Below are positions 39,726-64,000 of a stretch of DNA of 64,000 nt, in pieces. The notes beneath the pieces are model-generated. The model was not told where the DNA came from. It searched no databases and was given only the letters and a program-made list of their open reading frames with translations. How positions within the stretch are numbered: the stretch's first letter is position 1; the number at the start of each line of letters is the position of its first letter. Location of the stretch: positions 1,736,001 to 1,800,000 of the forward strand of contig BCJU01000002.1 in assembly GCA_001600355.1 (NCBI GenBank), read 5' to 3'. A program made the position numbers and the translations under genes. This stretch comes from Meira nashicola (lineage: Eukaryota > Basidiomycota > Exobasidiomycetes > Exobasidiales > Brachybasidiaceae).

Positions 39726-40824
39726 CTTTCTTCTTTTCTGTCAAAGGGTTATGAAGGAGAGAACTGTGACTGAATGCTTATCGGACTGCAGATTGTAGAT
39801 GATCGTAGGCCAAGACCAACACGCAGGCACAAATGCACACTACATCTCAAGGCGCCGGCGCGTTTACGCTGCGTTAAGGGCTGAACTGACTGCTTGCTTA
39901 AAAGCTTGTATGACCGGTTCGATTGAACGACAAGAATTGAATCTGGTAAATATGTACATATGACTACAAATCTTATCAAATCCTTATCGATACTTTAGAA
40001 GATTGTCAATCACTCAATTTCAGTTTTTATCACGCATTATCTATCACGGTAGAGGGGGTTCCAAAGGTAAAAAGCAACGTGCGCCCGAATCACTTTGCAT
40101 ACTGGACCGTGGCGTTACCTGCAAACTTCGGCGTAATAAGATTCAATGCGCCCTCATAGTTAGAATTCGGGCCCTGATGAATGCTCTTACAGTCATTCAA
40201 TAGCATTTATTCTTTGAATCTTAAAGATGATATATGACTTTCTTAACGTCAAAAACATCCGCCCTATACGCACATAAACATTTATAGTATGTACTAGGTG
40301 GAGAAGAACTCTCCACTCAAGTCTGCTGCATATAGTAGTAGCTGATCGCACAGCGGCTTTCCGCAATGAGGTCTTGGGGGCAGTGTCTGTAAATACATAC
40401 ACATATGTGCGCGCGCGCTCTGCCTCGAAAGGAGTATCCTACATATTTCCCATACACAGTGCTCATAGGCAGACAGACAGACGTACGTACGTGTAAGAAT
40501 AACTTGTACAACAAACACTGTCGTGTTTTGTTATTTTTCGCTCTTCCTGTTACATACATATATTATAAACATTCTCCTTACTCCTAACTTCATCATCACA
40601 TTTCGCAAAAAAAAAAATCCTATCTTTTGGCGTTACACGTCCTTATTTGAATTCTTTTGAGCTTTAAGCTCGTTGCTTTCTTTTGATCGTCAATCGATCT
40701 TTACGTTCTCCAAGTCTTTATCGTCAAAAGAAAGGTCAATCATCTTCTTCGTTCTGACGATACATTTTGACTTTTTATCTTTTTGATATTAAGGCTTCAG
40801 TTTGCTGCTTGGTCCCAATCTCGA
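39726..40824. promoter_or_regulatory. Divergent intergenic region DID2 / SEC14, 1.1 kb
   Basis: This holds both promoters. Simple-sequence patches are visible: alternating CG near 40407..40418, and AGAC repeats running into ACGTACGTACGT at about 40471..40492. The last 200 bp before 40825 are T-rich. 'GCTTCAG' at about 40794-40800 could be a splice acceptor of a 5'-UTR intron, but no paired exon was proven. Confidence 0.45.
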
Positions 40825-61137: not shown

Positions 61138-62574
61138 ATGGTTTATGTACCTTCTTCGTCGTCAGCGATGACGACGACAACAATGACATCAACAAAGACA
61201 GAACAAGCAAATCAATCAATTTCTCAACCTAGTTATCTTTTTCGTCAACCTTCAGGTAATAGTATCAGAAATTCGATTAGCAGTTCCAAATCAAATACGC
61301 GTAGCATAGGAAACAAAAGACCAACAAAAGAAAATAAAGATCATACGACATCTTCTTCTAATCTCGTTCGCTTATCTTCCAAACGATCTTCATCCGACAA
61401 CAATTCCGATGTAGAATTGAATGAGAAATCGAAATGTACAGATGCAAAAGAAGCATTATGTAGGAGAATGGGAGCTTTATTCTTACGTCATAGAGTGGAA
61501 CAATTGGCAGATGATGTTGAAAAGATGCAACAAGGTAAAAATCAAAGATGTCCAATTCAAAGGAGAATGCAAAGAAAAGTGAGGAATGAAGTTGGACAGA
61601 TTGATTCGTCGGAAAATTTAAGCGTTACAAATACCACTACAACCGATCTTACTACTCTAACCAGCGGCAGCGAAGAACTAGTTGCACAATACGCAAACGA
61701 GAGCAACATTAAACAACAACAAAAATGGAAATCCCCCTCTTGTAAAAAATCTCGATTTTCATCTTGCATCACTTCTTGCAAACAGCCACAAAGGGAAACG
61801 AATAAACCTTCACAAAGTACAACTTCAGATCCCAGCTTACCTTCTTCAAAACCTTCTAGTACTTCTGTTTCACGCATCATTATTGCCGATGCAAGCTTGC
61901 TTATTTATTCTTTACGTACCGTTCACGAATATCTCAAAGCGGGCGATTGTCAAGTAATCGTTCCATGTGAAGCTTTGAGCACTTTGGATGTTCTCAAAAA
62001 AGGTGAACATACTTTAAATTGGGCAGCTCGTCGTGCTACACGATTTTTGGACGAAAGATTTTCTATTTTGGATGATGGATCAGATGATGCCGAAGATTTG
62101 CAATTTTCCACGAATGAGAAGAGAGACTTTTCCAATTTACGAGCAGGACTTTTTCCACAAGGATTACATCAACGCTTAAGCATTGTAAAAAATCAATTAA
62201 GCGATGAAGAAAACTTACTTGAGAAACTTGGTATTTCGATTCAATCCCTCAAAAAGGCACCTTTAGTAGCAACAAAGACATTCGATTGTGCTCTATACTT
62301 CTTTGATAAGTATCAGAGCAATGATCAAATTTCATGCTCTCTTGCTATTGCCTTACCACCGCCACATCTGGATTTCGAGCAAGAAGCATTACATGTCGAA
62401 TCAAGTTGTAACCTTCGTTTTGCTGAAAGAGCAGATGGAAATCTGATGCTACAATGGTCAAAAGAATCCGGTTTGATAACGCCTGAAAGTGTTCGGTCAC
62501 CACGCTTGATTGTAGCGCCAACTGCTGCTAGTTGGCTTACAGTGGCTTCCACAATTCCAAATTCTGCTGCTTAA
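61138..62574 (+). CDS. PIN-domain (putative endoribonuclease-fold) protein
   Basis: The protein has 478 residues from the ATG at 61138; the open frame reaches only a TTG further upstream. The N-terminal 240 residues are Ser/Thr/Asn-rich and unstructured, apart from a helical block 'KCTDAKEALCRRMGALFLRH'. From about residue 245 a PIN domain begins: 'SRIIIADASLLIYSLRTVHE' with the first acidic Asp (about 251), then 'CQVIVPCEALSTLDVLKKGE', 'AARRATRFLDERFSILDDG' and 'DCALYFFDKYQ'. PIN domains are Mg-dependent nucleases or inactive RNA-binding folds. The pattern 'VPCEALSTLDVLKKG' resembles Nmd4/SMG-type PIN proteins of nonsense-mediated decay. Whether all acidic residues for catalysis are present cannot be judged by eye. 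Confidence 0.65.
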   Translation: MVYVPSSSSAMTTTTMTSTKTEQANQSISQPSYLFRQPSGNSIRNSISSSKSNTRSIGNKRPTKENKDHTTSSSNLVRLSSKRSSSDNNSDVELNEKSKCTDAKEALCRRMGALFLRHRVEQLADDVEKMQQGKNQRCPIQRRMQRKVRNEVGQIDSSENLSVTNTTTTDLTTLTSGSEELVAQYANESNIKQQQKWKSPSCKKSRFSSCITSCKQPQRETNKPSQSTTSDPSLPSSKPSSTSVSRIIIADASLLIYSLRTVHEYLKAGDCQVIVPCEALSTLDVLKKGEHTLNWAARRATRFLDERFSILDDGSDDAEDLQFSTNEKRDFSNLRAGLFPQGLHQRLSIVKNQLSDEENLLEKLGISIQSLKKAPLVATKTFDCALYFFDKYQSNDQISCSLAIALPPPHLDFEQEALHVESSCNLRFAERADGNLMLQWSKESGLITPESVRSPRLIVAPTAASWLTVASTIPNSAA

Positions 62575-63009: not shown

Positions 63010-64000
63010 CTATTGTGGTTTCGACTTATCGTTTTTGGCTTTATCGTTTTTGGACGTAGCGATTTGCAATGATTTGTAGATATTATTGACGCCTCCTCCT
63101 CTGGTTGTTGGTCTGAAAACTGGTGAACGTTTTTCCGCATCTGGTGAAGGTAAGGCTTTCTCCTCAAGGCTTCTCTGATAAAGATCATTTGCGTCATCTC
63201 TTTTAGTGGGTTTTTTATCGGGTCCTAGGTAACCACTTCCTTTCCAAGAAAAGATTGGTGAACGTTTTGCTGCATTTGGTGAAGGAAAGGCTTTCCCCTC
63301 AAGGCTTCTTTGATAAAGAACGTTTGCGCCATCTCTTTTAGTGGCCTTTTTTGTGGCAGGTTGTAGGTAACCCTTTCCTTTCCAGGAAAAGATTGGTGAA
63401 CGTTTGCTAACTTGCTCTTCTTTGCTTTCTTGTTTATCAAAGACGTTACGCTCGATTACTTTTGCACCACTTTCGTCATTCTCAGCAGCGAGATTACGAG
63501 GGTCAAAAGAGTACATCTTATACTTTCTGTATGCTGGATCACGAATTTCCACTTCTGAAGTTGTTTCTTTTTCGGACAAGCCACGTTTATGGCCAAAGTT
63601 ATAATAGCTCGACTTGGCAAAAGCTGGCTCACGTTTTTGATTGTTTTCTAGACCAGAATAATATCGATTGATGTGGAAAATCGGCTCACGTTTGATCAAA
63701 TTGGCTTTTGCAACATTCGTAGATGAGGAGGAAAGTTCACGTTCCATTTCTTTTTCATCGTTATGCTCGTCCCGCTTATCAAAAACGATTTCAGTCTTTG
63801 CATTTGTCTCTAACTCTTCAATCGAGCGGCGAGGAGGAGCGCCCCAGAAAAATTTGCCATATCTAAATATTGGACTTCGTTTCACAAGTTGAAGTTGATC
63901 TGGTGTATATTGAGTCTCACGCTCTTTCTCTTCTTCGATGGAACGGCGATGTGTTCCTGGGCGATATGACAACCAATTTGCCCAAGTCGGTTCACGTTTT
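63010..64000 (-). CDS. Kex2-type multi-peptide precursor, N-terminal part beyond window edge
   Basis: The frame runs off the right edge (first complete codon at 63999..63997, stop at 63010..63012), so 329 C-terminal residues are visible; the apparent start at 63972 is an internal TTG. Eleven Lys-Arg pairs cut the chain into segments. After KR, seven segments begin X-Pro: 'EPTWANWLSY', 'SPIFRYGKFFWG', 'EPIFHINRYYSG', 'EPAFAKSSYYNFG', 'SPIFSWKGKGYLQP', 'SPIFSWKGSGYLGP' and 'SPVFRPTT'. An eighth copy, 'DPAYRKYKMYSF', follows a single Arg. A second peptide kind alternates with them: 'DGANVLYQRSLEGKAFPSP' and 'DDANDLYQRSLEEKALPSP'. This matches how fungal Kex2-processed repeat proteins (mating alpha-factors, U. 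maydis Rep1, dikaritin RiPP precursors) are built. A signal peptide should lie beyond 64000. I know no family with this core. Confidence 0.75.
   Translation of the reverse strand, partial: KREPTWANWLSYRPGTHRRSIEEEKERETQYTPDQLQLVKRSPIFRYGKFFWGAPPRRSIEELETNAKTEIVFDKRDEHNDEKEMERELSSSSTNVAKANLIKREPIFHINRYYSGLENNQKREPAFAKSSYYNFGHKRGLSEKETTSEVEIRDPAYRKYKMYSFDPRNLAAENDESGAKVIERNVFDKQESKEEQVSKRSPIFSWKGKGYLQPATKKATKRDGANVLYQRSLEGKAFPSPNAAKRSPIFSWKGSGYLGPDKKPTKRDDANDLYQRSLEEKALPSPDAEKRSPVFRPTTRGGGVNNIYKSLQIATSKNDKAKNDKSKPQ
63133..63405 (-). repeat. Two tandem 138/135-bp coding repeats
   Basis: Unit 1 (63405..63268, 46 codons) and unit 2 (63267..63133, 45 codons) each encode KR, the SPIFSWKG-type peptide, a second KR, and the LYQRSLE-type peptide. 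DNA and protein are closely alike, as expected from a recent tandem duplication. The remaining peptide copies in the gene are more diverged. Confidence 0.85.

Follow-up and report, generated by a model that had tools for sequence, protein, structure and literature searches.

A probable Kex2-processed repeat protein with x-Pro aromatic segments and acidic spacers in Meira nashicola

The window, i.e. the whole 64,000-nucleotide stretch of DNA analysed here, corresponds to G000:C2:1736001-1800000 in a genome of 17.88 Mb (20 contigs) and has a GC content of 38-47% when taken in 4-kb pieces. At its end, positions 63010-64000 hold a stop-free minus-strand frame of 329 residues. This frame overruns the window end: its first Met lies at G000:C2:1801088, 1,088 bases outside, and the complete gene (G000:C2:1801088-1799010, minus strand) is a single unbroken ORF of 692 amino acids, here referred to as the precursor. 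The part within the window (63010..64000, minus strand, by ORF reading) encodes the C-terminal residues 364-692 plus the stop. From residue 1 on, the precursor reads MLTKITKWASWAITIAILQHLILTTLATPVS, a signal-peptide-like start. By hydropathy, the sole method applied, MLTKITKWASWAITIAILQHLILTTLATP is signal-peptide-like, and the homologue from Meira miltonrushii (P0002, described below) is alike; such an N-terminus is one of the marks of Kex2-processed repeat proteins (KEPs). The hydropathy peak is 1.92 at the N-terminus versus 1.06 elsewhere in the precursor, and 2.05 versus 1.48 in P0002, with 21 of 39 aligned N-terminal residues being identical between the two proteins. The preliminary description of this DNA had proposed a secreted Kex2-type precursor, to be given up if no signal peptide lay upstream. 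The hydropathy-based, signal-like N-terminus present there, matching the one in the Meira homologue, supports the proposal.

Cutting at [KR]R splits the precursor into 28 segments, 27 of which were scored (the signal segment was left out, and none other is shorter than 6 aa). Nine open with x-Pro (xP), and the window holds seven of these; they are given here from the N-terminal side, all on the minus strand. The xP segment EPTWANWLSYRPGTH followed by RR (63943..63993; residues 366-382, net charge 0) precedes an acidic segment (63877..63942; residues 383-404, net -4 before KR). The next xP segment, SPIFRYGKFFWGAPP followed by RR (63826..63876; residues 405-421, net +2), has an APP end, and ends like it recur in P0002 and in a second homologue, P0003. 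Two acidic segments, each of net -4, come after it (63772..63825, residues 422-439; and 63688..63771, residues 440-467). Two xP segments then adjoin each other, EPIFHINRYYSGLENNQ followed by KR (63631..63687; residues 468-486, net -1) and EPAFAKSSYYNFGH followed by KR (63583..63630; residues 487-502, net 0), before a long acidic segment (63400..63582; residues 503-563, net -4), which contains a IRDPAYRKYKMYSF stretch without a dibasic site before it. Further on lie two repeats, each made of an xP segment as its first half and a spacer as its second: SPIFSWKGKGYLQPATKKAT with KR (63334..63399; residues 564-585, net +4) and a spacer of net 0 (63262..63333; residues 586-609), and then SPIFSWKGSGYLGPDKKPT with KR (63199..63261; residues 610-630, net +2) and an acidic spacer (63127..63198; residues 631-654, net -5). 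The C-terminal xP segment, beginning SPVFRPTTRGGG (63013..63126; residues 655-692, net +6), closes the protein. Beyond the window, two more segments of the precursor open with xP, one as SPVF and the other as APII, and there is also a second type of segment, rich in Trp; residues 191-258 form segments that do not fall cleanly into either peptide or spacer. Six of the nine xP segments are 14-20 aa long, two are 29 aa and one is 38 aa.

The dibasic sites and the openings behind them are far more frequent than composition would give. A recount agreed with the 11 Lys-Arg pairs reported earlier for the 329 window residues and with the seven Ser-Pro or Glu-Pro openings directly after KR (EPTW, SPIF, EPIF, EPAF, SPIF, SPIF and SPVF). 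When residues 31-692 were shuffled 20,000 times at constant composition, the 18 KR observed were never reached (shuffle mean 5.5), and neither were the 27 [KR]R (10.4 expected), an excess of sites that is a second mark of KEPs. The pattern [KR]R-[SEA]P-[IVAT]-[FIWY] occurs nine times, versus 0.0036 expected, and again none of the 20,000 shuffles reached it. For the density of dibasic sites, 3.9 per 100 aa, the comparison set was the 32 mechanical ORFs that reach 250 aa in L006, L007 and the window, some of them perhaps spurious; their median is 0.81 and their maximum 1.50, and none of the 32 carries the xP opening. Internal repeats, also expected of KEPs, are present as the nine xP openings and one 45-codon repeat pair. 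They are degenerate, and Tandem Repeats Finder (score 40) gave just one 25-base row within the gene. As in the STE13 signature (XP or XA after a dibasic site), an xP dipeptide follows the site in these nine segments, with one dipeptide per unit and no run.

The window part, used as query against 5.8 billion proteins, had P0001 as its sole match. Since P0001 is identical over 435 residues and divergent thereafter, it appears to represent this gene in a different assembly and was set aside as independent evidence. It differs from residue 436 on, as if a T run (L002 near 1280-1290) were one T short, and ends at residue 463; the shift is probably a sequencing difference. With the full protein as query, two further sequences were found: P0002, an uncharacterised protein of 865 aa from Meira miltonrushii (28% identity over 97%, E 2.7e-95), and P0003, a 528-aa fragment on a 2,553-base ENA contig (34% over 65%, E 5.3e-65). 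A profile search with the three-sequence alignment, scoring the 7,999 candidates with the most words in common, gave no further relatives. The family is thus known from three distinct sequences, and because the protein searches rest on shared 5-residue words, relatives in other Exobasidiales could be missed. Within the precursor's own genome, the window part, the full precursor (692 aa) and P0002, each taken as a protein query, matched only the precursor locus. At the DNA level, a degenerate pattern encoding K-R-x-P-[IV]-F, which admits AGY (Ser) and misses KEPs opening otherwise, gave 50 matches genome-wide versus 38 for its reversed control and no second cluster of the opening; six of the 50 lie within the precursor gene, and the only other pair within about 1 kb (C5:318688 and C5:319347) has AGT (Ser) for Arg in one member.

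The three sequences share a two-class anatomy. Segments opening with xP number 9 of 27 scored here, 12 of 41 in P0002 and 9 of 31 in P0003. In the precursor, their mean net charge is +2.1 (n=9) versus -2.3 for the other segments (n=18; permutation p 5e-5), with six xP segments positive, two zero and one negative, and with 14 of the 18 others negative, two zero and two positive. The corresponding means are -0.1 (n=12) versus -1.8 (n=29) in P0002 (p 0.004), and +1.7 (n=9) versus -2.6 (n=22) in P0003 (reached in 0 of 20,000 permutations). The share of xP segments that are positive (6/9, 5/12 and 6/9 in the precursor, P0002 and P0003, respectively) is low for classical antimicrobial peptides. Charges of neighbouring segments alternate in P0002 (lag-1 -0.62, 0 of 20,000) and P0003 (lag-1 -0.50, p 0.002), and the alternation is not significant in the precursor itself (lag-1 -0.26, p 0.11). 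The spread of segment charges is weakly above that of shuffles except in P0003, being reached by 299 (precursor), 187 (P0002) and 5 (P0003) per 5,000.

Phe, Trp and Tyr are richer in the xP segments of the precursor (p 0.014); in P0002 this enrichment is not significant (p 0.18). Trp as such is not concentrated there, with 6 of 14 Trp in the xP segments of the precursor, 4 of 22 in P0002 and 6 of 15 in P0003 (scored segments). All six Cys of the mature precursor are paired, with three segments having one pair apiece (chance 0.001), and the one Cys pair of P0002 sits in the aligned YFFG..C...CHK segment. The Trp-rich type is represented in the precursor by WAPYCWWCRYMAAGGST, in P0002 by four PWW segments plus WRAWFLNRFKPGG, and in P0003 by two PWW segments; the PWW segments have no xP opening. 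A STNWLEWF stretch in the precursor aligns with the homologues' PWW segment, and the leading KR is absent here. Counting this degenerate unit, the precursor has one Trp-rich unit plus one degenerate, versus five in P0002. As the numbers of Trp-rich units differ among the precursor, P0002 and P0003, it seems to be whole Kex2-bounded units whose copy number changes.

Conservation was scored on the alignment with P0002 and P0003, leaving out homologue-gapped columns and the first 41 residues. Dibasic residues were kept at 43 of 53 positions in P0002 and 34 of 40 in P0003, versus 21 of 54 and 16 of 33 for lone K/R (p 7e-6 and 9e-4). The xP openings were also better kept than other openings (23/35 versus 28/65 in P0002, p 0.025; 21/28 versus 20/46 in P0003, p 0.0075), although aligned units may be paralogous and the kept-opening counts possibly inflated, so that the conservation is better evidence of the motif than of orthologous peptides. 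Past the opening, xP segments were no better kept than the rest (45/124 versus 140/355 in P0002; 35/92 versus 85/231 in P0003). The two most alike C-terminal repeats (45 codons) have a pS of 0.215 and a pN of 0.129, with pN/pS of about 0.6 in both halves (pS/pN 0.244/0.154 in the peptide half and 0.189/0.107 in the spacer half). We do not use this comparison as evidence for peptide over spacer, because the sample is too small and shows no preference for the peptide. Selection is thus visible at the cutting sites and at the opening, the rest being looser. The earlier suggestion of selection on the peptides is supported in part: the homologues keep the xP opening and the dibasic sites, the remainder of the xP segments is no better kept than other segments, and the peptide and spacer halves of the repeat pair have a similar pN/pS.

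The preliminary description had also named a conserved folded domain across the KR sites as evidence that would speak against it. Such a domain was sought by Pfam (at cut-off) and by PDB sequence search (at E 1), neither of which gave a match for the precursor; these two sequence searches answer the objection in part. NCBIfam gave nothing above cut-off. DUF5137 (E 0.0096) and Tachystatin_B (E 0.066) were considered and rejected, as both are below their curated cut-offs and absent from P0002 and P0003 at E 0.1.

Matches to the enzymes that such a precursor would need are present in the genome. There is one proprotein-convertase (kexin) match genome-wide, a 919-aa ORF with subtilase and P domains, and one Ste13-type dipeptidyl peptidase, a 1031-aa ORF with DPPIV_N and Peptidase_S9 domains, which is the enzyme that goes with the STE13 signature. 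Matches to S10 serine carboxypeptidases account for 22 rows genome-wide; two clusters of such matches lie at G000:C1:4532491-4551167 and C5:370938-393033, and two rows have internal stop codons.

Fourteen neighbouring ORFs were scanned, eight in the window from position 40783 and six in L006. Eleven carry Pfam domains (CRAL/TRIO, RhoGEF, ArgJ, phosphoesterase, methyltransferase, Nsp1_C, Isy1, MDM31/32, two acyl-CoA thioesterases and PH), and three do not; a ribosomal L1 gene is situated between the scanned neighbours. The 478-aa ORF adjoining the precursor (61138-62571) has no Pfam match. None of the neighbours suggests a peptide-tailoring cluster. On the minus strand, L006:1041-2048 and L006:2290-3297 are tandem ORFs of 335 aa, both with an acyl-CoA thioesterase N-terminal domain. 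Divergent from the precursor lies a plus-strand gene (L002:4509-6868, i.e. G000:C2:1803008-1805367), the two start codons being about 1.9 kb apart. It has three exons joined over GT/AG introns and encodes 737 aa, with several hydrophobic stretches (judged by eye) followed by a long tail. A weak DUF6533 match in its exon 1 (E 0.0012) is below cut-off and was unseen in the whole-genome search; for DUF6533 itself, the literature searched offered nothing usable. We regard this gene as a candidate membrane receptor.

Taken together, these features make it very probable that the precursor is a KEP, and it looks built for cutting into more than two dozen short pieces. The 692-aa preproprotein would enter the secretory pathway via its N-terminal signal peptide, the genome's kexin would cut behind KR and RR, and the basic residues left at the ends would be trimmed by S10 (Kex1) family carboxypeptidases. 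The predicted products fall into two classes. The first would comprise about ten aromatic peptides of 14-38 residues, neutral to basic (net -1 to +6): nine with an x-Pro-[IVAT]-[FWI] opener, plus the Trp-rich WAPYCWWCRYMAAGGST; of these ten, three would have one Cys pair each. The second would consist of mostly acidic segments that balance the charge within the precursor and presumably serve as spacers. The Ste13-type dipeptidyl peptidase may then take off the x-Pro dipeptide. Most likely, the peptides would act extracellularly, in an antimicrobial or effector-like way and with the membranes or walls of the fungus or of other organisms as targets, and not as a mating pheromone. For this account as a whole (a KEP, two product classes and outward-acting aromatic peptides), we estimate a probability of about 0.5.

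As to what the released peptides might do, an antimicrobial or effector class of function is our tentative choice, and one that could well be mistaken. KEPs are widespread in fungi and the functions of most are unknown, according to the available text of PMC9769878, which also reports that deletion of six Coprinopsis kep genes had no apparent phenotype in axenic growth and suggests roles towards the biotic environment; the same paper used Pichia to express Coprinopsis KEPs. In a more specific version, the precursor would be an antimicrobial polyprotein, releasing a Trp/Pro/Arg cocktail of indolicidin- or tritrpticin-like xPWW peptides, x-Pro aromatic peptides and Cys-loop cores, with acidic spacers keeping them harmless while in the secretory pathway and with Kex2-bounded units gained and lost between species. 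The composition of the PWW type does resemble that of indolicidin and tritrpticin, as far as these are described in the available text of PMC6017362; otherwise, the literature searched on Trp-rich peptides gave general papers only. This specific version is, in our view, rather unlikely.

Another possibility, unlikely but still to be reckoned with, is a Rep1-like coat, in which Kex2-released aromatic peptides would self-assemble into surface-active, possibly amyloid fibrils that render hyphae or yeast cells water-repellent or adhesive, the acidic spacers keeping them soluble within the secretory pathway. The order of events would be the same as for Rep1 (as described in the available text of PMC8528282 and PMC6339444), aromatic stretches such as KSYFFG and KFFWG are present, and the divergence of the copies might be tolerable for a structural coat. 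However, the peptides of Rep1 are described as 37 aa long and without the STE13 signature (available text of PMC6339444), and most xP segments here are only 14-20 aa long.

The peptides might also be secreted signals for a receptor of the same fungus, hormone- or pheromone-like, with the Ste13-type enzyme taking off x-Pro, as happens in alpha-factor. Le Marquer et al. propose xP after a dibasic site, the STE13 signature, as a mark of Basidiomycota hormone precursors (available text of PMC6339444). The Ste13-type enzyme is in the genome, and the Pro is kept while the residue before it varies (S, E, A, Q, V, M or T). A varied residue before a kept Pro is what the specificity of DPP IV would allow. 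The divergent membrane-protein gene with a weak DUF6533 match adjoins the precursor, but that match is below cut-off and did not appear in the whole-genome search. The single xP also differs from the repeated XP/XA runs of alpha-factor precursors, and the copies within the precursor differ widely, as would not be expected of a single ligand. No genome match was obtained for STE2 (PF02116), and the control genomes are likewise without a match. STE3-type receptor matches above cut-off are on contig C1, whereas the precursor is on C2. On this evidence we consider signals for an own receptor unlikely but, like the coat, still to be reckoned with. The narrower reading as an alpha-factor-like mating pheromone precursor, a type that the preliminary description named as an analogue, finds no support in the same results: near-identical mature copies, as expected of a pheromone precursor, are not what the precursor has. 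The STE3 places (G000:C1:3456532-3457259 and C1:3463028-3463672) are about 6 kb apart and likely represent a pheromone/receptor mating locus; two TGA codons stand in frame in one STE3 row and may reflect an intron, and C1:4675843 has a weak STE3 match below cut-off.

That the precursor is an uncut secreted repeat protein, e.g. a disordered wall or adhesion protein with its KR pairs unused, is very improbable, given the excess of dibasic sites over expectation, their preferential retention in the homologues and the change of copy number in units bounded by them. A dikaritin-type RiPP precursor, with cores cyclised by UstYa-like oxidases, would share the Kex2-bounded repeats with Tyr and Trp, but UstYa (PF11807) has no match in the genome (nor in any of 14 control genomes) and at E 0.001 no RiPP-tailoring domain, UstYa included, was found in the 14 neighbouring ORFs. 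This reading has hardly any probability, and the modified RiPPs proposed earlier are not supported. A mating pheromone and a dikaritin RiPP are thus both unlikely, and we return to the KEP with two product classes as the preferred reading.

The precursor had been called undescribed, which is correct for the protein itself, unreported in the literature searched, but not for its kind: X-Pro (STE13) KEPs of Basidiomycota are already described in the available texts of PMC6339444 and PMC9769878. The main texts of these two KEP surveys make no mention of Meira or of Exobasidi*. Since KEPs with the X-Pro signature are known from Basidiomycota, the precursor family is new and its class is known. What the precursor offers is a two-class anatomy, a kept x-Pro opening and whole peptide units that vary in number between species, probably within Exobasidiales. 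Such anatomy and unit change make the antimicrobial, coat and signal readings separable. Exobasidiales include fungi associated with plants and fungi of leaf surfaces (cf. PMC13010171).

The closest comparison is with the STE13-signature KEPs (Le Marquer et al. 2019, PMC6339444; Vogt et al. 2022, PMC9769878), with which the precursor, judged by the available text of both papers, shares a signal peptide, a large number of units set between dibasic sites, xP behind the site and both enzymes in the genome. By the descriptions given there, the published STE13 KEPs have repeated XP/XA before near-identical cores, some ending in Trp; the precursor, in contrast, has a single xP in front of cores that are diverse, and it mixes these with acidic spacers and with segments that are Trp-rich or Cys-paired. 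Rep1 of Ustilago maydis is likewise a secreted basidiomycete polyprotein cut by Kex2 into several peptides, but differs, again by description (available text of PMC6339444), in peptide length and in lacking the STE13 signature. Ascomycete alpha-factor-type precursors have the Kex2 sites, the x-Pro after the site and the repeated units in common with the precursor, which departs from them in its diverse copies and in the receptor results given above (STE2 unmatched, as in the controls, and STE3 on another contig). The Impatiens Ib-AMP precursor sets its peptides between acidic spacers in one multi-peptide polyprotein. The precursor resembles such Ib-AMP-type antimicrobial polyproteins, compared by description, in having peptides between acidic spacers within one protein, and differs from them in the modest charge of its peptides.
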